Below, one piece after another: positions 3,717 to 53,027 of a DNA stretch of 64,000 bases. Both the position numbers and the translations under genes were made by a program. Position 1 is the first letter of the stretch, and each line of letters opens with the position of its first letter. The DNA is from Ignavibacteria bacterium (lineage in GTDB: Bacteria; Bacteroidota; Ignavibacteria; Ch128b): the NCBI GenBank assembly GCA_013177855.1, contig JABLYA010000001.1, positions 124,001 through 188,000 of the forward strand, written 5' to 3'. The notes under the pieces were generated by a model. The model was not told where the DNA came from. It did no database searches and saw nothing but the letters and a program-made list of their open reading frames with translations.

Positions 3717-4742
3717 ATGCAAAAAGTTAAACTTATCAAAGTTCTTACCACAGAAGATTGGTTAATTGTTTTAGCTACATTCATATTAGTATTAATGTTT
3801 GGATTAAATTGGTTCTTTAACAACAATGATCTTGTTCAAAATGAACCAATTAAAATCTACATTAAGAAGGGGATGAATTTTTCACAGATTGCTGACACTT
3901 TGAAGAAGTATAAGATTATCAATTCTAAAATGGCTTTTATTGCGACTGGTAAATTTCTTGGTGCTGAAACAAAAATTAAAAGTGGTTACCATTTATTGAA
4001 ATATGGACTATCTAATTATGATTATTTGAATTTACTGGTGACTGGTAAAAATTTGGTGAATGTTCGAGTAACTATTCCGGAAGGATTAACTCTGAAAGAA
4101 ATTGCCCGAATATTTGAACAGACCTTTGATTTTAGTTCCGATGATTTTTTAAAAATTGCATCAAATCAAGAATTACTTAAAAGATACGAAGTTGAGCATA
4201 CTTCATTCGAAGGGTATTTAATGCCTGATACTTATGAATTTGCTGAACTGGATAATCCCGAAATAGTATTAACAAGGTTAGCAGACGAATTCAAAAAATT
4301 TTATGATGAGAAGATTAAACCAAAAGAACGGGATGTTGGTTTATCTAAAAATCAAATTGTAACCTTGGCTTCTATTATTGAAGGAGAAACTAATTTTGTT
4401 GATGAGATGCCTCGTATTGCTGGGGTATATTTAAATCGATTGAAAAGAAATATGAAATTACAAGCTGATCCGACTGTAGCCTATGCCAGCGGAGATAAAC
4501 CAAATAGAATTACTTATAATCATTTGAAGAATAATTCACCTTACAACACATATATTGTTTATGGGCTTCCTCCAGGTCCAATTAATTGTCCAGGTAAAGA
4601 TGCATTGATTGCAGCTGTCAATCCTGAGAAGCATAACTTTTTATATTTTGTTGCATCAGGTGATGGTAAAAGTCATATTTTTGCCAGAACCTACTCAGAA
4701 CATTTGAAAAATGTATCTAGATACAGAAGGTTGATGAGATGA
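3717..4742 (+). CDS. mltG: Endolytic transglycosylase MltG
   Basis: Inner-membrane lytic transglycosylase that cleaves nascent peptidoglycan strands and sets glycan length. One N-terminal membrane helix (about residues 13-33) is followed by a LysM-like region and the YceG catalytic domain. The catalytic Glu lies in ASIIEGET, followed by LNRLKRNMKLQADPTVAYA and GLPPGPI, all typical. I chose ATG at 3717. A TTG at 3708 in the same frame would add three residues and overlap the tsaD stop, and neither start has a clear Shine-Dalgarno. The 3' end overlaps the next gene by 4 nt. Confidence 0.94.
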   Translation: MQKVKLIKVLTTEDWLIVLATFILVLMFGLNWFFNNNDLVQNEPIKIYIKKGMNFSQIADTLKKYKIINSKMAFIATGKFLGAETKIKSGYHLLKYGLSNYDYLNLLVTGKNLVNVRVTIPEGLTLKEIARIFEQTFDFSSDDFLKIASNQELLKRYEVEHTSFEGYLMPDTYEFAELDNPEIVLTRLADEFKKFYDEKIKPKERDVGLSKNQIVTLASIIEGETNFVDEMPRIAGVYLNRLKRNMKLQADPTVAYASGDKPNRITYNHLKNNSPYNTYIVYGLPPGPINCPGKDALIAAVNPEKHNFLYFVASGDGKSHIFARTYSEHLKNVSRYRRLMR

Positions 4743-6391
4743 GAAAATTGATCTTATTGTGCAGCACAGTTCTTTTAATATTTTCTGGTTGTGCAAATCA
4801 ATTACCGCCGGGTGGTGGACCTGTTGATAGAGAAAGTCCAGAGGTTATTCGCACCTTCCCTGAAAATGGAACAATTAATTTTAATAAAAACTATGTTGAG
4901 TTTGAGTTTAGCGAATACATAAATAAAAGAAGTTTGATGAATTCTATTTTTATCTCACCTTACCTTAGCGATGAAGTTGAACAAAAATGGTCTGGCAGAA
5001 AATTAAGATTAATCTTCCCTGAAAAACTAAAAGAGAACCAAACTTATGTAATTTCTCTTGGCACTGATATAACAGATTTAAGGGGGAATAAACTAAATGA
5101 AACTTTTACTTTAACTTTTTCAACCGGCTTAAAGATTGATCAGGGGATTATTTCAGGGAGAGTCTACGACAAAAAACCCGACGGAATTATGATTTATTTT
5201 TATTTAATCGATACTTTGAAACAATTTGTGGACTATACTCAGAAAAAACCCGATTTTATTTGTCAAACTTCAAAAGATGGCAGCTTTATTCTCTCAGGAT
5301 TGCCGAACGGTTTATATCGAATAATTGCTGTAAGAGAACAAATGAAAAATCTTATTTATGATATTAATGAAGATGAAATTGGATTACCTTATAAAGATTT
5401 TGAATTAAATGATACTTCAAGAATTATTCGAAATGTTCAATTTGAAATGATAAAGATTGATACTATTAAACCAACACTCAATTCAGTTCGCTTTATAGAT
5501 TTAAATCATTTGTTATTAAATTTTAGTGAGCCTATTGATACTTCTTCATTTAATATTGAAAATTGTTTTATTTACGATTCACTGGAAAATGAAAAGTTTA
5601 ATCCGCTTGGCTTTTTCTTAAGTGATAAAAATTCAATTATGTTAGTTACGCCAAAAATGAAGAGTAATTATGATTATGTCTTAAGTCTGAAAGGATTAAA
5701 AGATTTATCTGGCAATGAATTGGATTCGATCCAAAGTACTTTTTATTCAGAAATGATTTCTGACACAATACCTGTAACAATCAAATCAATACAAGGTAAT
5801 TTTTCATCATCATCTTTGGAATTTTTTAATCCAGAAATTTCAATCAATTTTAATGATTTAGTTTATTATGACAATTTTTTAGAAGCCTTATTGATTTCGG
5901 ATACAGCAGGTAATAAAATCAGATTTGAATTAACCCGTCAGGACAGCGCAAACTTTAAAATTAAATTAGAACCTCAGAAGCAAAAAGAGAGAGTTTTAAT
6001 TAGAATCAATTTAAGCTTCTTAGAAGATTTCTCAGGCAAGAAGCTGGATTCAATTTACACTAAAATATTTGAGACAAATAGTGAAGCAGATTATGGTACT
6101 ATTTCTGGACGTTTGGAAAACAGAAAAGAGCCTGATAGAAATCTACTAGTCGAAGCAAAATCAATAAATGACACTAAAATTTATTCAATTGAAACAAGAG
6201 AGGATAAATATCAAATAAAAAACATCCTACCAGGAAATTATTTTGTTAAAATTTCAATTCCATTTACCAAATCAAATCTCAGTTATAAAAGTTTTTCAAA
6301 TCCATTCATTTATTATCCGGATACAATTAAAGTGAAATCGAGATGGCCCACTACAGATGTTGATTTTGATCTGGAAGAATTATTCAGGTGA
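4739..6391 (+). CDS. Lipoprotein with bacterial Ig-like (Big_5) domains
   Basis: Predicted cell-surface or periplasmic lipoprotein of 550 residues. The signal peptide ends in a lipobox (IFSGC, Cys about residue 18) followed by ANQLPPGGGPVD. Residues about 30-130 form a Big_5/SbsA-type Ig-like domain (ESPEVIRTFPENG, then LTFSTG). A similar domain recurs around residues 240-350 (IKPTLNSVRFIDLNHLLLNF). A carboxypeptidase-regulatory-like beta-sandwich is likely at about 150-200 and again at the C-terminus (GTISGRLENRK, then YQIKNILPGNYFVKI). This layout is common in Bacteroidota. Substrate and partner are unknown. The gene overlaps mltG by 4 nt and converges with the minus-strand gene below by 12 nt. 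Confidence 0.8.
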   Translation: MRKLILLCSTVLLIFSGCANQLPPGGGPVDRESPEVIRTFPENGTINFNKNYVEFEFSEYINKRSLMNSIFISPYLSDEVEQKWSGRKLRLIFPEKLKENQTYVISLGTDITDLRGNKLNETFTLTFSTGLKIDQGIISGRVYDKKPDGIMIYFYLIDTLKQFVDYTQKKPDFICQTSKDGSFILSGLPNGLYRIIAVREQMKNLIYDINEDEIGLPYKDFELNDTSRIIRNVQFEMIKIDTIKPTLNSVRFIDLNHLLLNFSEPIDTSSFNIENCFIYDSLENEKFNPLGFFLSDKNSIMLVTPKMKSNYDYVLSLKGLKDLSGNELDSIQSTFYSEMISDTIPVTIKSIQGNFSSSSLEFFNPEISINFNDLVYYDNFLEALLISDTAGNKIRFELTRQDSANFKIKLEPQKQKERVLIRINLSFLEDFSGKKLDSIYTKIFETNSEADYGTISGRLENRKEPDRNLLVEAKSINDTKIYSIETREDKYQIKNILPGNYFVKISIPFTKSNLSYKSFSNPFIYYPDTIKVKSRWPTTDVDFDLEELFR

Positions 6392-46554: not shown

Positions 46555-47175
46555 TTGCCATTGCAATGGCCACAGGGTGGATGGCCCAATGGTGATTCGA
46601 CTGTAGTTATAAGATTGTATGATGATGGGACAAATGGAGATTTGGTAGCAGGCGATAAGATATTCTCAAGAGATATTACATTCCCGCAGTACACAGTATT
46701 GAGAGTTGAGTACAAATATTCAATCAACTGGGGAGATGCTGTAAATAATGGTGGAGGAAATGATAATGAAGCTGGCTTTGCCCAGAATCACATTTTGAAT
46801 ATGACGAGATTTATGACAGGAGCGACAACGGTTGATACATTTGGAAGGATGGGGGATTCATATTTGACAAACATTACAGGAGTTAATGATCAGTCAGTAA
46901 CAAAGCCGACGACATATTCATTATCACAGAACTATCCAAATCCATTCAACCCATCGACAAGGATTAAATTCACACTTCCAGAGATGACAAGAGTTACATT
47001 GAAAGTTTACAATGTTCTTGGTCAGGAAGTAGCGACAATACTTGAGAACAAGGAGTTGCCGGCAGGATATTATGATTATGAATTTAATGCTGGTAATTTG
47101 ACAAGTGGAACCTATATTTATCGAATAGTTGCTGGCAATTTTGTTCAGACTAAGAAGATGATTTTGATGAAGTAA
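46555..47175 (+). CDS. T9SS sorting tail, 3' fragment of the frameshifted gene
   Basis: 206 residues in the +2 frame relative to the upstream part. It has no signal peptide or ribosome site of its own, so the ATG at 46555 is a convenience only. The frame is open from before 46471. It continues the last sandwich domain (LQWPQGGWPNGDSTVVIRLY) and ends in a type IX sorting domain (QNYPNPFNPSTRIKFTLPE, YNVLGQEVATILENKELPAG, then QTKKMILMK). A single-base loss at 46468-46470 separates it from its 5' part. A real mutation and a homopolymer sequencing error are both possible. The tail is nearly identical to that of the gene at 48978. Confidence 0.72.
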   Translation: MPLQWPQGGWPNGDSTVVIRLYDDGTNGDLVAGDKIFSRDITFPQYTVLRVEYKYSINWGDAVNNGGGNDNEAGFAQNHILNMTRFMTGATTVDTFGRMGDSYLTNITGVNDQSVTKPTTYSLSQNYPNPFNPSTRIKFTLPEMTRVTLKVYNVLGQEVATILENKELPAGYYDYEFNAGNLTSGTYIYRIVAGNFVQTKKMILMK

Positions 47176-47236
47176 AGTGATTTGATGAACAACGAAAAAG
47201 CCCTCTGATTTTCAGAGGGCTTTTTTGTTTTAAATG
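46954..47236 (+). repeat. 283-bp direct repeat, copy A (sorting tail plus terminator)
   Basis: Aligned without gaps to 50025-50307, with about 14 mismatches by hand count. Twelve are in the first 120 bp and only two in the last ~165 bp. It covers the end of the sorting domain, the stop codon, and the hairpin terminator. Confidence 0.9.
47196..47230 (+). terminator. Rho-independent terminator
   Basis: Stem of 13 bp, AAAAGCCCTCTGA (47196-47208) with its complement 47212-47224, loop TTT, followed by a T-rich run (47221-47230). It closes the T9SS gene cluster. Confidence 0.88.
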
Positions 47237-47382
47237 TATTATTGCTTTACAGATTTAATAATTAGAAGATTTTCAAATTTTTGTTTTAATTTTTAAATAA
47301 ATTTTCAACAACTGCATAAAGCTATTCATTATTATTTCCTTCATTAAATTCTTTTAATTCAATTTTATCATTAAGATTACCA

Positions 47383-47390
47383 GCATCAGT
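47383..47390. repeat. Left target-site duplication of the IS256-family element
   Basis: GCATCAGT, repeated exactly at 48753-48760. Eight-base duplications are characteristic of the IS256 family. Confidence 0.88.
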
Positions 47391-48752
47391 GAGCTATATT
47401 CAAAATTAGTTGAACTTTAAGAGAGAAGAGTTTCCTTTCATTGATTAAATTGAAATAAAAGGAAACAAAGATGAAAGGAAACTCCAATGAAAGATGAAAA
47501 ACAATATTTAACTATTTCAAATATAGAAGAAATGCTTGAAAAATTTTACAAGAATAGAGATCAACTTTTATTAGAGTTTATGTTTTTTCCATTTTTTGAA
47601 GCTTTGAAAAAAGAGATCGAAGAGAAAGCTGGTAAGAAATACAAACATGATGGTCAATACTATAGATGGAGTAGTAATCCTGGTAGTATATCAGTAAACG
47701 GGGAGAAAGTAAGAGTAAAAGTTCCGCGAATAAAGGATAAGCAGAGTGGTAAAGTAGAAACGCCGGAGATATATAACAGAGTAAAAAAGAATATTCATAT
47801 AAGTGAGAGGATAATGAAGAAATTATTGGCAGGAATAAGTCAAAAGAGATATAAGGAAACTGCACAGGAATTAGCTAATAGTTTTGGATTAAGCCAGAGT
47901 AGTGTAAGCAGGATATTTACAGAGGAAGCAGAGAAATACTTAAAAGAGTTTGAGGGTCGGAAGTTAAATAACTACGATATATTGGCAATAATCATAGATG
48001 GGAAGTATTTAAAGAAAGATCAGATAGTATATGCAATAGGATTAACAAATACAGGATATAAGATAATATTAGGTTTTATACAGACAAATACAGAGAATAC
48101 AGAAGCAATCAAAGGATTGCTTAAGGATTTAATAAACCGAGGATTAAAGTATGAGAGAGGGATATTATTTGTAACAGATGGTTCAAAAGGGATAATCAAA
48201 GCGATAGGAGAAGTATTTGGGAAATATGCTGCAATACAACGATGTCAATGGCATAAAAGAGAGAATGTAGTAAGTTACCTGACAGAGGAATTAAAAGAAA
48301 AGTATAGGAATAAACTTCAGAGAGCTTATCTTGAACCTGAATATGTGATTGCAAAATCCAGATTATTAGAAATCCACAAAGAGCTTCAGATGATAAATAG
48401 GACTGCATCAAATTCATTACTTGAGGGTTTAGAGGAGACATTGACGATACACAAGCTTGGAGTAAGGGACGAGCTTGGAAGGAGTTTAGGTACGACAAAC
48501 ATAATTGAGAGTACAAATTCACAACTTGCAAGTAGGTTAAGAAGAATAAAGTTCTGGAAGAGTTCGCAAATGATAGCCAACTGGATAGCAATAAATTTAT
48601 TGGATATAGAAAAGAGGATGAAACGTATACATAATTATCAAAGGCTCAAATTATTAGAGCTTGCTTTAATTGATTATGTTAGTTCAAACAAACATATGGT
48701 AGCGTAGCAATGAAGGAAACTCTTCAACTTCAACTAAACTTGAATAATTCCC
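47391..48752 (+). mobile_element. Complete IS256-family insertion sequence, 1362 bp
   Basis: The element is bounded by an 8-bp direct repeat (GCATCAGT). Its imperfect terminal inverted repeats align at about 23 of 31 positions. The left begins GAGCTATATTCAAAATTAGT and the right, in reverse complement, GGGAATTATTCAAGTTTAGT. A single intact transposase gene fills it. The insertion lies between a terminator and the next T9SS gene, so it disrupts no gene. The 5' flank (47231-47382) is A+T-rich and holds nothing I recognise. Confidence 0.9.
47487..48707 (+). CDS. IS256-family (Mutator-type) transposase
   Basis: 406 residues, intact. The DDE catalytic residues are visible as IIIDGKYLK (Asp), FVTDGSKGI (Asp) and NIIESTNSQLASRLRRIKFW (Glu). 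The Mutator-type block IQRCQWHKRENV lies between the second Asp and the Glu. The N-terminal region includes VRVKVPRIKDKQSGKVETPE and a helix-turn-helix-like QELANSFGLSQSSVSRIF, suited to binding the terminal repeats. The frame has no stops or shifts, so the copy is probably functional or recent. Confidence 0.95.
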   Translation: MKDEKQYLTISNIEEMLEKFYKNRDQLLLEFMFFPFFEALKKEIEEKAGKKYKHDGQYYRWSSNPGSISVNGEKVRVKVPRIKDKQSGKVETPEIYNRVKKNIHISERIMKKLLAGISQKRYKETAQELANSFGLSQSSVSRIFTEEAEKYLKEFEGRKLNNYDILAIIIDGKYLKKDQIVYAIGLTNTGYKIILGFIQTNTENTEAIKGLLKDLINRGLKYERGILFVTDGSKGIIKAIGEVFGKYAAIQRCQWHKRENVVSYLTEELKEKYRNKLQRAYLEPEYVIAKSRLLEIHKELQMINRTASNSLLEGLEETLTIHKLGVRDELGRSLGTTNIIESTNSQLASRLRRIKFWKSSQMIANWIAINLLDIEKRMKRIHNYQRLKLLELALIDYVSSNKHMVA

Positions 48753-48760
48753 GCATCAGT
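48753..48760. repeat. Right target-site duplication of the IS256-family element
   Basis: GCATCAGT, exact copy of 47383-47390, directly after the right end of the element. The 217 bp from here to the next start codon are A+T-rich, with no feature I can support except a ribosome site at 48968-48973. Confidence 0.88.
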
Positions 48761-48977
48761 TTTTGTCAAGAAGAATTTATAATTATTTTTTTATAACTAT
48801 TAATTCTCTTTAATATCCTTCACAAATAAATCTTAATGGTTTAATGAAACTTCCACAAATTTAGAGTTTTGTCTATGATTAAGGATTTAAAAATCAATTT
48901 TTAATTATTATTATCATCATTTGAAATTTATTGATGAAAATATTAAAGTTGCAATAAGAATTTTAATGGGAGGCAGT

Positions 48978-50246
48978 ATGAAAACTAAATTATTTGCATT
49001 CTTTTTTTTGTTTAGTAATATCTTAATAAGTCAAAATTTTGACAATCTCCTAATTAACGACTTAATACTTGATAATGAAAAAATTTTTGTTGTAGGAAAA
49101 AATTACGACAACTCTCTTCAAGTTGTTAGAACTCAAATAAACGATACAAGTCAACAAACGATTTTTAAAAAAAGTTATCTTTTCCCTGATACAGTTGTTG
49201 TTGTAGCAACTAAACCTCTATTATTGGGTGATACTTTAATAGTCCCTTATATACTTAATACAAACACACAAGAAAATTTTATATTGCATTTACATAAAGA
49301 TGGTACCGTTATCAAAAATAACCGAATGCCATTTCCAATTATGTTGTTTAAATACTTGAATAAACCAATTTTAATCACCTATAATACCGCCTTGAAAATA
49401 TATAGTTATCCCGAATTAACTCTTTTAAAAAGCCCTGATATAAATGTAGATATAACTACCCTAGATCCTGCTTCTGACATTGAAAAAATAGTAATATACG
49501 ACGATGGTAAAATAAATTCAAGAATTATTGTGATAAATAATCTTAATGATTCTTTAAAAATTTTTAAATTTAGCAACAAAGATTTTAGATTAAGAGGCTA
49601 TTATGAAAATGGAAAAATATTTGTAGCTTCTTCAATACTTGGAAATGATGCTGTTTATGTAAATTTATATCTAATTGATTCTACTTTTTCCATATTGAAA
49701 AAGAAAGAAAAAATTATGATAGGATTTGTTAGAGCTGTATTAAAGATTAATAATTTATATTACGTTTTAGTAGATGATCCTGTTGTGACTAATTTTAGTT
49801 ATATTTTAACTCTTAATGAAAATCTCGAAGAAGTAAATAACAGGATTAAAATCGCGGGGGCTGGATATACAATGATTAATGATAATTCATATATTTTTGT
49901 TGCGGTGAACGTACCACCAAGTCATTCATTTATTCAAAAAATTCCTTTTTTTACCAATGTAGAAGAAAAAATTGAAAAGATAACTTTCCAACTTTATCAA
50001 AATTATCCTAATCCTTTTAACTTATCGACAAGGATTAAATTCACCCTGCCAGAAATGACAAAAGTTACCTTAAAAGTTTATAATATTCTTGGTCAGGAAG
50101 TAGCGACAATACTTGAAAATAAAGAATTGCCGGCAGGATATTATGATTATGAATTTAATGCTGGTAATTTGACAAGTGGAACCTATATTTATCGATTAGT
50201 TGCTGGCAATTTTGTTCAGACTAAGAAGATGATTTTGATGAAGTAA
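48978..50246 (+). CDS. T9SS-sorted secreted protein of unknown function
   Basis: About 422 residues. The start is ATG 48978, with ribosome site GGGAGG at 48968-48973. It gives a signal peptide (KTKLFAFFFLFSNILISQ). The earlier ATG at 48921 would place 19 residues before the signal and is rejected. The body (about 20-330) is rich in strands, Asn and Ile, with no domain I recognise; a propeller of beta-strands is possible. The C-terminal type IX sorting domain (YQNYPNPFNLSTRIKF, ILGQEVATILENKELPAGYY, QTKKMILMK) is nearly identical in DNA to that of the frameshifted gene upstream. NLST replaces the usual NPST. Confidence 0.78.
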   Translation: MKTKLFAFFFLFSNILISQNFDNLLINDLILDNEKIFVVGKNYDNSLQVVRTQINDTSQQTIFKKSYLFPDTVVVVATKPLLLGDTLIVPYILNTNTQENFILHLHKDGTVIKNNRMPFPIMLFKYLNKPILITYNTALKIYSYPELTLLKSPDINVDITTLDPASDIEKIVIYDDGKINSRIIVINNLNDSLKIFKFSNKDFRLRGYYENGKIFVASSILGNDAVYVNLYLIDSTFSILKKKEKIMIGFVRAVLKINNLYYVLVDDPVVTNFSYILTLNENLEEVNNRIKIAGAGYTMINDNSYIFVAVNVPPSHSFIQKIPFFTNVEEKIEKITFQLYQNYPNPFNLSTRIKFTLPEMTKVTLKVYNILGQEVATILENKELPAGYYDYEFNAGNLTSGTYIYRLVAGNFVQTKKMILMK

Positions 50247-50307
50247 AGTGATTTGATGAACAACGAAAAAGCCCTCTGATTTTCAGTGGGCTTTTTTGTT
50301 TTAAATG
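50025..50307 (+). repeat. 283-bp direct repeat, copy B (sorting tail plus terminator)
   Basis: Partner of 46954-47236. It has equal length, no gaps, and about 14 differences by hand count, concentrated in the 5' part. It includes the stop codon and terminator. Confidence 0.9.
50267..50301 (+). terminator. Rho-independent terminator, copy with one stem mismatch
   Basis: Same hairpin as at 47196, with CAGTGGG instead of CAGAGGG in the 3' arm, so one base pair is lost. The T-rich tail is kept. It is probably still active but weaker. Confidence 0.75.
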
Positions 50308-50517
50308 GTAATGCAAAATAAACTTGAAGAAGTATTAATTGAATAACAATGAATTCCATTTGAAAAAAGAAAAAGAAAAAAAGAAACCTGTAATGGCTCA
50401 ATGTGATTAATATACAATTACATTGGGGTAAGGGTAAATTTTTAACAATCCTAAAAATGTCTGAAACGAATAACCAATGAACTCACCAATGGATGTGAAT
50501 AATAAATTAAAAAATAA

Positions 50518-50884
50518 AAACCCCGCAGGGGTTTAATGTGAATAGCCCCCAATCGCATTGGGGGTAAATGAGAACCGCAAAACAAAGAACCCCAAAGGGG
50601 TTCAATTATAAAAGAAATTGTTTTAAACGATTAAAAATATTCCATTATATCATTCATCAAAAAATAAATTCTCACATTCAACCCCTTCAGGGTTGAAAAT
50701 TTCTTTTGATAATATTCCTTGAGTGCAACTCGGGGTTAATCATATTCAACTCCTTCGGAGTTGTTGAAAAACATCCGACACAAAACATTGATTTAATTTG
50801 CGCTAATTGAAAATTAAATCCAGAATGGATTATATTATTATAGAAAAAACAATCTCTCAAAAAAAACAAAAATCCTGCAGGGAT
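50518..50884. repeat. Cluster of seven short inverted repeats
   Basis: Stems with 2- to 5-nt G+C-rich or TTC loops: AAACCCC-GCA-GGGGTTT (50518-50534), CCCCCAAT-CGC-ATTGGGGG (50546-50564), GAACCCC-AAA-GGGGTTC (50587-50603), TTCAACCC-CTTCA-GGGTTGAA (50677-50697), CAACTCC-TTC-GGAGTTG (50747-50763), AATCC-AGAAT-GGATT (50817-50831) and ATCC-TGCAG-GGAT (50872-50884). Arm sequences differ but the plan is the same. They resemble REP-like intergenic elements; no mobilising gene is nearby. Confidence 0.8.
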
Positions 50885-50973
50885 AACATTATCATAAAAA
50901 CATAAAAATTCATAAAATCTTTGAACTGGGAATACTAAAACCATAGAGTATCAATCCAAATATACAATTAAGT

Positions 50974-50990
50974 ATTGTCAGATTGACAAT
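50974..50990. repeat. Short palindrome, ATTGTCA-GAT-TGACAAT
   Basis: A perfect 7-bp inverted repeat with a 3-nt centre, followed 16 nt later by a lone CTGACA. It could be an operator-like site, but no gene start is nearby, so function is unknown. Confidence 0.5.
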
Positions 50991-51035
50991 TAGTCGACAT
51001 TCTGACATATTTATTTATTGAATTTATGATACCCC

Positions 51036-51085
51036 ACACCTATACAGGTGGGGGTACCCACCTATATAGGTACCCCCTCCCACCT
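51036..51085. repeat. GGTACC-containing inverted repeat
   Basis: CACCTATACAGGTG (51037-51050) runs into GGGGTACC, then CACCTATATAGGTACCCC. The arms AGGTGGGGGTACC and GGTACCCCCTCCCACCT are complementary apart from three extra bases, giving a strong possible hairpin next to the tandem repeat. Confidence 0.6.
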
Positions 51086-51316
51086 CAAAGTTGAACTAAT
51101 TCAAGTTAAAGTTGAACTAATTCACCTATGAATTGAACTAATTCAGGTCAAAGATGAACTAATTCAGGTCAGAGATGAACTAATTTAGGTTAAAGGTGAA
51201 CTTGTTTACCTTAAAGATGAACTAATATACTTCAAAGGTGAACTAATTCAGGTCAAAGTTGAACTTGTTAAGATCAAAGGTGAACTTGTTCATATCAGAG
51301 GTGAATTAATTTATGT
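51086..51316. repeat. 21-bp tandem repeat, 11 units
   Basis: Eleven consecutive 21-bp units with consensus near CAAAGNTGAACTAATTCAGGT and no length change between units. Each unit carries the near-palindrome TGAA-CTAA-TTCA. Read in the frame of base 51087 the units encode a heptad (K-x-E-L-I/V-x-V), but stops occur at 51129 (TGA) and 51186 (TAG) and no start codon is seen. Mutations are mostly at the unit junctions and positions 6 and 17-20. Confidence 0.93.
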
Positions 51317-51408
51317 AAGAGGAGGGACTATTCTTATATTTTATATTTAGGTAAAAATTTTTAATAGATCGCCTCTGTGGAGCTTTGATATTTTTTATTT
51401 CTTGTCTT

Positions 51409-51673
51409 TTCTACAAATAGATTGCTTCTAACGAATCTTTTTCGAGTTAAAAAAAACTAAAAATTACCTACAGACACTTTAAATGAAATCGCATAGCGAA
51501 AACCTGTTCGAAGCACAAAATAATTAATTATAAAAATGTGAAGTTGCTTAGCAACGAACTATTTGTAAATGGAAAGTTGAACGGATAAAAATTGAAGTCG
51601 CGTAGCGACAACTATTTGTAGAATTTAAAAACCCCAGAGTTCAAGTAGCATAGCCATGACTTATTTGTAAAAT
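51409..51673. repeat. Dispersed TAGCGA hairpin/ATTTGTA element, four copies plus one inverted
   Basis: Copies at 51485-51512, 51539-51570, 51593-51624 and 51641-51673. The core is a 5-bp stem such as GTCGC-GTA-GCGAC (51597-51609) or GTTGC-TTA-GCAAC (51543-51555), followed in three copies by ACTATTTGTA or a near match. A partial copy in the opposite direction (TTCTACAAATAG...) lies at 51409-51435. The stem differs by a compensating pair between copies 2 and 3. Confidence 0.72.
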
Positions 51674-51700
51674 CTATAAATCAAAACATTCGTTCAAAAT

Positions 51701-51732
51701 TTTGTTAAGAGAGATTAATCTTATTAAATTTG
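51701..51732 (+). promoter_or_regulatory. Bacteroidota-type promoter for tRNA-Val
   Basis: TTTG at 51701-51704, a 20-nt spacer, then TAAATTTG at 51725-51732. This is the fullest match in the window to TTTG-N20-TAnnTTTG. The predicted start is about 22 nt before the tRNA 5' end. Confidence 0.6.
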
Positions 51733-51760
51733 CATCGGAATTTTGAAATTTTGTTTTGAC

Positions 51761-51835
51761 GGGCGCTTAGCTCAGTTGGTCCAGAGCGCCGCCCTTACAA
51801 GGCGGAGGTCAAAGGTTCGAGTCCTTTAGCGCCCA
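51761..51835 (+). tRNA. tRNA-Val (anticodon UAC)
   Basis: 75 nt with a complete cloverleaf. The acceptor GGGCGCT (51761-51767) pairs with AGCGCCC (51828-51834), and the discriminator is A. The D-arm is GCTCAGTTGGTCCAGAGC. The anticodon stem CCGCC/GGCGG frames the loop CTTACAA with TAC at 51796-51798. The T-loop is GGTTCGAGTCC. The 3' CCA is not encoded. Confidence 0.97.
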
Positions 51836-51905
51836 CAATTCAATTTAGAGAAGACATAAAAATTGCCGCACAAAATCCATTCATTTAGGCAAAGGAGCCC
51901 ATTAA

Positions 51906-53027
51906 ATGACCCAACCATCTCAATCCAATCGCTTAATCTCACTTGATGTTTTTCGTGGTCTCACTATCGCAGGAATGATATTAGTTAATAACCCAGGAAC
52001 TTGGTCTTCAATTTATCCTGCATTAAAACATGCAGAGTGGCATGGATGGACACCAACTGATTTTATTTTTCCATTTTTTCTTTTCATAGTTGGTGTTGCA
52101 ATGACTTTATCTTTTAGAAAAAGATTAGAAAGAGGCGATGATAAGAATAAGCTTTTCCTTCATGTTTTAAAAAGATCTGCAATAATTTTCGTACTCGGTT
52201 TATTTCTTCATCTTTTTCCATACTTTAACTTTTCTACTGTTAGAATTCCTGGAGTATTGCAGAGAATTGCAATTGTCTATTTAATTGCAGGCATAATTTA
52301 CCTTTACACAGGATTTAGGTTACAAGTTATAATTTCTATTGCTATTTTAATTTTCTACTGGCTTGCGATGACTTTAATTCCAGTTCCAGGTTATGGTGCT
52401 GGTAATCTCTCTCCCGAAGGTAATCTTGCTGCTTATATTGATAATGCATTGCTAAAAGGCCATATGTGGAGACCTAATTGGGATCCAGAAGGAATTCTCT
52501 CAACATTTCCGGCAGTTGTGACAACTATGATTGGAATTTTTACAGGTATGTGGCTACAGAAATCAAAAGATAAATTTGAAACGACTTCAGGAATGTTTGT
52601 CTCAGGTTATGTATTAATTGTTCTTGGAGTTATCTGGGATATGTGGTTTCCGATCAATAAATATATCTGGACGAGTTCCTATGTTCTTTTTATGGGTGGA
52701 ATGGCTCTTACATTTCTTGCATTTTGTTATTATGTAATTGAGATTAAAAATATTCGATGGTGGACCCAACCATTTTTAGTTTTTGGGATGAATGCAATTG
52801 CTTCGTTCTTTTTGTCATCGCTTGTTGCAAAAACAATGAACATTATAAAAGTTACAACTGATACTGGTGAAGCAATTCCATTAAAAGCTTATATATTCAA
52901 TAATTATTTTGCACCTCTTTTTTCCCAAACTATAAACGCTTCACTTGCATTTGCAATTTGTTATGTGATTTTCTGGTATTTGATAATGCTTATACTTTAT
53001 AAGAAAAGAATTTTTATCAAGGTTTGA
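51906..53027 (+). CDS. HGSNAT-like membrane acyltransferase (DUF5009 family)
   Basis: 373 residues with about ten membrane helices. The N-terminus (RLISLDVFRGLTIAGMILVN) followed by DFIFPFFLFIVGVAMTLSFR is typical of the heparan-alpha-glucosaminide N-acetyltransferase-like family (COG4299). Eukaryotic members pass an acetyl group across a membrane to a sugar amine. Bacterial substrates are mostly unknown, so a role in modifying envelope or imported sugars is inference. The ribosome site is AAAGGAG. It lies 71 nt after tRNA-Val and upstream of panD; a second, shorter related protein is encoded at 53463. Confidence 0.85.
   Translation: MTQPSQSNRLISLDVFRGLTIAGMILVNNPGTWSSIYPALKHAEWHGWTPTDFIFPFFLFIVGVAMTLSFRKRLERGDDKNKLFLHVLKRSAIIFVLGLFLHLFPYFNFSTVRIPGVLQRIAIVYLIAGIIYLYTGFRLQVIISIAILIFYWLAMTLIPVPGYGAGNLSPEGNLAAYIDNALLKGHMWRPNWDPEGILSTFPAVVTTMIGIFTGMWLQKSKDKFETTSGMFVSGYVLIVLGVIWDMWFPINKYIWTSSYVLFMGGMALTFLAFCYYVIEIKNIRWWTQPFLVFGMNAIASFFLSSLVAKTMNIIKVTTDTGEAIPLKAYIFNNYFAPLFSQTINASLAFAICYVIFWYLIMLILYKKRIFIKV

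Follow-up and report, generated by a model that had tools for sequence, protein, structure and literature searches.

A REPIN-like palindromic element in an Ignavibacteria genome shares its hairpin grammar with the surroundings of TnpA_Y1 subclass 1.2 genes

REP repeats are among the commonest repeats of bacteria and, to our knowledge, their multiplication is still poorly understood. As described for E. coli, Pseudomonas and Stenotrophomonas in two studies, REPs and REPINs are abundant short extragenic palindromes that occur together with TnpA_REP (RAYT) transposases: a low-copy Y1 gene lies between inverted palindromes, inverted pairs form units, and the type of hairpin is linked to the protein (PMC2817692, PMC6006769). 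Y1 enzymes, among them those of IS608 and ISDra2 as well as E. coli TnpA_REP, bind a folded hairpin on one strand and use a tyrosine to cut nearby single-stranded DNA (PMC8266576, PMC2817692). RayT transposase genes have also been named in Chryseobacterium (PMC11194056), and a text search of that article found no mention of palindromes. A related group of enzymes, TnpA_Y1 subclass 1.2, has been described as ∼148 aa long with DH[VI]H, WQ and Y---Q--HH motifs (Quentin et al. 2018; PMC6006769). In that study, subclass 1.2 has the table entry 'no' for REP, a described trait and not a defining motif, and is generally without terminal IS200 structures. Searches confined to the main texts of an open-access collection found no link between subclass 1.2 and REPs.

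We analyzed a 64-kb stretch of an Ignavibacteria genome (hereafter the window; C1:124001-188000 in a host genome of 3.66 Mb and 10 contigs), in which an initial annotation had described seven stem-loops at 50518-50884 sharing one plan with different arm sequences. The hairpins proved real and their number too low, since we counted eight units with perfect stems of 4–8 bp (A to H), of which A, B, C, G and H lie on the plus strand and D, E and F are inverted. Five to six hairpins in this interval compared with 0.1–0.4 expected, and none of 500 shuffles had as many. For stems of ≥6 bp with ≥3 GC, we found five versus a mean of 0.14, a count that none of 500 dinucleotide-preserving shuffles and just one of the 354 tiles of the window, the tile with 50518-50884, reached. 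The region 50512-50770 also folded as single-stranded DNA with a z-score of −7.1 (200 shuffles, none of which folded as well). Together, the shuffle counts and the folding exclude chance hairpins in A+T-rich DNA. The initial annotation had named a shuffled control giving as many stem-loops as its own refutation; because the shuffles fell far below the observed count, the signal survives.

Hairpin A (50518-50534, +) has a 7-bp stem, a GCA loop and the 3′ tail AATGTGAATAG. Right after the ATAG that ends this tail starts hairpin B (50546-50564, +; 8 bp), followed by hairpin C (50587-50603, +; 7 bp, AAA loop). The inverted counterparts of C, B and A are hairpins D (50677-50697, −; 8 bp), E (50717-50735, −) and F (50747-50763, −; 7 bp, GAA loop), respectively; the 8-bp stem of E is imperfect, with six of eight pairs remaining in the window copy, and the perfect 4-bp stem at 50721-50731 is its inner portion. 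Hairpin G (50817-50831, +; 6 bp, tail ending in TTATTATAG) belongs to the family of arrays around the host Y1 gene (locus L032), which hairpin H (50872-50884, +), decayed to 4 bp in the window copy, matches with two mismatches (C1:174872-174892). Further downstream follow an imperfect unit of GCTCC stem type (51362-51384, −) and four units of a second family, starting at 51487, 51542, 51596 and 51644 (51487-51666, +), with a stem, an RTA loop and a tail of the type GACCTATTTGTAG. The initial limits of the cluster are somewhat short, as related units reach ∼51666. By eye in part, we also noted an apparent extra decayed A-B arm at 50376-50440, upstream of the cluster, and, directly ahead of a 21-nt tandem repeat, G+C-rich nested palindromes at 51029-51085 (CACCTATACAGGTG, GGTACCCACCTATATAGGTACC; by eye). 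The tandem repeat itself (51085-51311, 10.8 copies) is interrupted by stops that make the window copy non-coding, and a similar 7-aa repeat is encoded by an ORF that precedes the core copy at C1:1310100.

BLAST of 50300-50950 against the host genome identified 75 places, including 16 long copies (∼290–650 bp, 76–100% identity, window copy counted). These copies and their inverted symmetry define a core palindromic element at 50516-50763, in which A-B-C faces D-E-F. The consensus of the 16 copies over the 253-nt core aligned with its own reverse complement over ∼110 nt per arm, pairing A with F, B with E and C with D, at a score of 71; the best of 2000 Markov controls scored 38, and the forward alignment gave 23. 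The inverted right arm was present in all 16 long copies, and both arms, ∼205 nt apart, in 15 of them. Many host copies are decayed. When we searched for hairpin 1, linker and hairpin 2 as one pattern, the host had 48 matches and its reversed control one, compared with ≤2 matches in each of 60 relatives; any match was present in 20 of 61 genomes. Matches to the whole element occurred in six of 61 genomes including the host, and those in the five of 60 relatives (genus to class) spanned only 24–64 bp. Decayed REP-like units had been among the initial suggestions. This comes close, but rather than standing in a loose row, six hairpins make up a single palindromic composite with 16 genome copies, joined to G/H units and then to units of the second family.

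Stem pairing was compared across 31 arms (26 distinct), the left arm of C1:943688 being excluded from the count as it lies outside the pattern. In this set, 95.6% of cells pair, versus 86.5% after shuffling and ≤54.4% when the arms were slid. Compensatory stem changes were present in 44 cells, and neither this number nor the covariation score was reached by any of 500 shuffles. On the same arms, two of five covariation measures, pairs changed on both sides (4 of 15) and further pair types, were not above shuffles. Most of the double changes separate left from right arms and may represent few events; among the 16 paralogues of a single arm, inspection by eye did not bear out stem covariation. 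Both the arm comparison and the matrix built from foreign units described below agree with one recurring design in which the arms covary.

According to a simple ORF caller, 14 of the 15 cores with both neighbors known follow the 3′ end of a co-oriented gene, with eight between convergent, six between tandem and one between divergent genes. None of the 16 cores lies inside an ORF of >106 aa, and four are overlapped by ORFs of 94–106 aa. This position 3′ of genes fits that of REPs. The window copy and C1:1983860 are parts of one segmental duplication (2.1 kb at 90%, which takes in the upstream gene), so that there are ∼15 core sites, two of them adjacent; copies 340858 and 341690 have an upstream gene in common. 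The other upstream ORFs, among those obtained for 14 of the 16 copies, resembled one another solely in short C-terminal segments of the secretion-signal type. The cluster is preceded, still within the duplication, by an inverted repeat (50262-50300, +) that resembles an intrinsic terminator of the gene upstream. We further observed, at 46555-50246, a Mutator-family transposase gene between two Por_Secre_tail genes with nearly identical C-termini; the second of these and the hairpin cluster have their duplicate at C1:1982-1984 kb.

The G/H hairpin family (ATCCYGAARGGATGAMATTAT, ≤2 mismatches) had 87 matches in the host (control 0) and any match in 10 of 61 genomes, and the second family 52 host matches (control 0), the one at 51543 among them. 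With the 48 matches of the core pattern and the 75 BLAST places, the genome-wide count of similar units proposed initially thus revealed dispersed families of REP-like abundance. Arrays of the G/H family are present on both sides of a 153-aa Y1_Tnp (HUH) gene at C1:694.5 kb, the host's only match at E ≤ 1e-8, which is interrupted by one in-frame TAA. Its protein matched Pfam PF01797 (3.8e-25) and passed the NCBIfam IS200 model NF033573 (70.5 bits, cut-off 55), as did 18 of 18 aligned relatives, and it stayed below the cut-off of the REP-transposase model NF047646 (28.3 versus 80 bits). Judged by its motifs (DHVH, WQ and YILKQEEHH), the host transposase is assigned to TnpA_Y1 subclass 1.2; a class 2 RAYT is excluded by YILKQEEHH, which is not Y---NP, and by the NF047646 score. 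Copy numbers of the Y1 gene in relatives are low and the copies divergent.

Other Y1-related sequences in the host were inspected separately. A candidate decayed second Y1 near C1:314495 was dismissed, because the DNA around it differs in composition and, by eye, it appears unrelated. Beside an array at C1:310500-318500 (L034), the G+C content is higher at positions ∼4000-5600, where a phosphatase-like reading and the remains of a broken Y1 were noted by eye; this segment, unlike the rest of the genome, could be foreign DNA or assembly contamination. At C1:371500-375500 (L033; 2-3823, −), a Y1_Tnp domain lies in frame within an Eco57I-type restriction-modification protein, and the peptide repeats before this domain resemble a translated hairpin array. 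In-frame REP insertions have been described for subclass 2.4 tnpA genes, whereas here a whole Y1 domain is inside another gene. At C1:278500-284500 (L035; 1887-3262, −), two tandem Y1-like ORFs directly follow another Eco57I-type gene, one of them with in-frame peptide repeats of the SDQRVNPDN type.

To relate the hairpins to the protein outside the host, an alignment of 18 proteins was used to scan genomes, and we took the best 80 loci of at least 584 confirmed relatives, mostly from Bacteroidota. Among these best matches, which are not a random sample, a hairpin was present within 150 nt upstream of the Y1 gene at 53 loci, downstream at 67 and on both sides at 46, compared with 60 (14%) and 75 (18%) of 423 control ORFs of the same loci upstream and downstream, respectively; these association tests ignore shared ancestry. 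No hairpin was called upstream of 27 and downstream of 13 of the 80 genes. Median distances to the gene ends were 28 and 17 nt. Restricting the nearest units to those with a 5-bp stem and a 3-nt loop left 108, of which 85 had the tail toward the gene, eight had it away from the gene and 15 were unreadable. The consensus of the 85 inward units was A-[RCYCC]-[GWA]-[GGRGY]-GRMATRTTT; since unit direction was read from the loop, the loop in this consensus is itself selected and the tail is not. On the 5′ side, the A at position −1 alone is conserved, and a GT[AG]G foot was not found. The hairpins in the window and those flanking subclass 1.2 genes thus follow the same grammar, namely a stem of 5–8 bp, a loop of usually 3 nt and a one-sided A/T-rich 3′ tail, which at the genes points toward the coding sequence.

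A pattern without forced pairing had 119 matches in 18 of 29 genomes (control 1), 112 of which pair at all three variable stem positions, for which we estimate a chance of ∼1/8, and comprised six stem types. Across 61 class relatives, the unit pattern had 271 matches versus 12 for the reversed control. The 38 genomes with a Y1 gene averaged 6.7 units and the 23 without it 0.8 (P = 2.5e-4), and the 19 genomes with a close Y1 gene 11.0 versus 1.5 in the 42 others (P = 3.5e-6; 8e-6 without the host), all three P-values ignoring shared ancestry. Stem type follows the Y1 protein tree: among 81 proteins, the A-initial or G-initial stem type needed 9–11 changes, compared with 24–26 after shuffling (none of 500 shuffles as low). 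The host protein belongs to a supported group of 30 (100/95) with 23 A-type and four G-type members and three without a called unit. An 11-row clade had no unit by the 5-bp/3-nt definition, and several of its members have GACYC or CGACCCC stems. In one genome (G047), each of two Y1 genes has its own hairpin type, ACCCC/ACCGC at L065 and GCTCC at L138. The Y..xQ..HH motif was present in 75 of 81 tree rows and the strict subclass 1.2 pattern in 21 of 25 parsed class relatives (five of 30 loci were not parsed).

We then scanned the 64-kb window with a matrix built from the 85 foreign units, none of which came from the host. The six best matches all lie inside 50519-51564: hairpin C (25.9), hairpin F (23.7), the unit at 51362 on the minus strand (22.6), hairpin A (22.4), hairpin D (18.0) and the second-family unit at 51542 (17.3). 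As ten Markov-simulated windows scored 18.0 at best, four of these matches exceed every control, D is about equal and 51542 is below. Matches were obtained for the second-family units in general, with a high score only at 51542, and G and H scored low (7.3 and 9.7). The tails of the core units differ from the foreign consensus at the first base, which is T for G. An early suggestion that the hairpins are sites of a structure-guided enzyme fits these results, as flanks, tree and matrix all link the hairpin design to a Y1/HUH transposase.

How does the locus compare with the described systems? Like REPs, its units are abundant and one of their families surrounds a Y1 gene in the host, in line with the predominantly inward units elsewhere. 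As in REPINs, the core has two inverted arms around a spacer, which would move as one unit. RAYTs, however, are class 2 enzymes (Y---NP), whereas the Y1 protein here is class 1 (Y---Q--HH), and REPs carry GT[AG]G at the 5′ foot, whereas hairpin 1 here lacks a foot and has a conserved 3′ tail instead; in the core, ATAG or ATTAG stands before hairpin B, and this likewise departs from that consensus. We therefore call the units REP-like and not canonical REPs. They also differ in the perfect 5-bp stems of the units and in the three hairpins per arm of the core. BIMEs are similar in their modular arrays with units in both orientations, but here several hairpin families are mixed and the order of the core modules is fixed. 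Subclass 1.2 as published agrees with our proteins in length, the DH[VI]H, WQ and Y---Q--HH motifs and the range in Bacteroidota, but is listed without REPs, whereas hairpins flank most members that we examined.

The resemblance to IS200/IS605 elements (IS608, ISDra2) and their MITE/PATE derivatives lies in the related transposase and the terminal hairpins. It raises the alternative of an ordinary insertion sequence with subterminal hairpins whose dispersed units are miniature derivatives and not REPs, for which the passed IS200 model, in the host as in all aligned relatives, and the short distances of the hairpins from both gene ends speak. We nevertheless consider this explanation unlikely, because the host holds one interrupted gene and not several near-identical complete copies, relatives hold few and divergent ones, and the hairpin units, by contrast, come in dozens and far outnumber the gene. 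Moreover, the Y1 gene stands within arrays of such units, and subclass 1.2 is described as lacking IS features (PMC6006769).

Nearly all cores lie downstream of a co-oriented gene, and most have convergent or tandem neighbors, which could also mean that the cluster, in line with the multi-hairpin RNA suggested initially, acts mainly as RNA, as a 3′-end multi-hairpin structure for termination or mRNA protection under host selection, and paired changes that preserve the stems, as well as five terminator-like stems versus 0.9 expected, would suit such a role. Against this very improbable reading, the element is species-limited and dispersed with many decayed copies, the grammar tracks a transposase clade in other genomes, and Rfam returned nothing above its thresholds for 49800-52000 except a tRNA at 51761-51835. 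A later RNA role would in any case not exclude a mobile origin. Slimmer still is the chance that the copies spread by segmental duplication and recombination between repeats alone, without a transposase: this accounts for the 2.1 kb shared by the window copy and C1:1983860 and for the common upstream gene of 340858 and 341690, but beyond these pairs upstream ORFs match in nothing more than secretion-signal C-termini, and protein and hairpin types vary together, which calls for a recognizer.

The cluster is best read as REP/REPIN-like repeats that belong to a lineage of transposases for which the open-access literature searched gives no REP link. We regard it as quite probable that 50516-50763 is a non-autonomous REPIN-like palindromic element sharing the subclass 1.2 hairpin grammar, with movement by a Y1 enzyme as the presumed mode of spread. 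By analogy with the enzymes introduced above, a subclass 1.2 Y1 enzyme would recognize the hairpin that folds in single-stranded DNA, such as that of the lagging-strand template, and its tyrosine would cut in or near the 3′ tail, thereby copying or moving hairpin units. The constant loop and 3′ tail may be the parts for recognition and cutting, and the inverted arms could form a unit that can be taken whole. As the enzyme gene is interrupted and the copies are 76–89% like that of the window, the host set looks old; the cluster in this host is probably inactive and the window copy a fossil. None of the Y1 genes was found to have the core's own A-B hairpin type at its flanks, and the core may therefore belong to another, lost enzyme. 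Nor did the array at L034 or three relatives (G001, G002 and G003) yield an exact empty site. At L034, where a transposase gene appeared cut by the array, other copies of the gene end elsewhere, which left the exact site unreadable. For the gene that follows the tRNA, G003 has a close ortholog and G001 and G002 have only distant matches, and since the tRNA-Val of G003 is on the other strand relative to this gene, its intergenic DNA is not comparable as an empty site.

More broadly, it seems reasonably probable that subclass 1.2, a clade found widely in Bacteroidota and catalogued without REPs, forms a distinct lineage of REP makers whose hairpins obey a grammar of their own, a short RCYCC-GWA-GGRGY stem-loop with a 3′ tail replacing the 5′ GTAG guide, and that it builds palindromic multi-hairpin elements such as the one in the window. 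If subclass 1.2 enzymes do make REPs, this trait would extend past the subclasses now credited with it, and not every REP would be marked by a 5′ GTAG guide. Dozens of genomes, each with its own protein, carry stems that covary while loop and tail stay constant, and these would offer ready pairs of enzyme and hairpin for testing how HUH enzymes choose their hairpins. The grammar would also permit the annotation of many unexplained intergenic palindromes in Bacteroidota.
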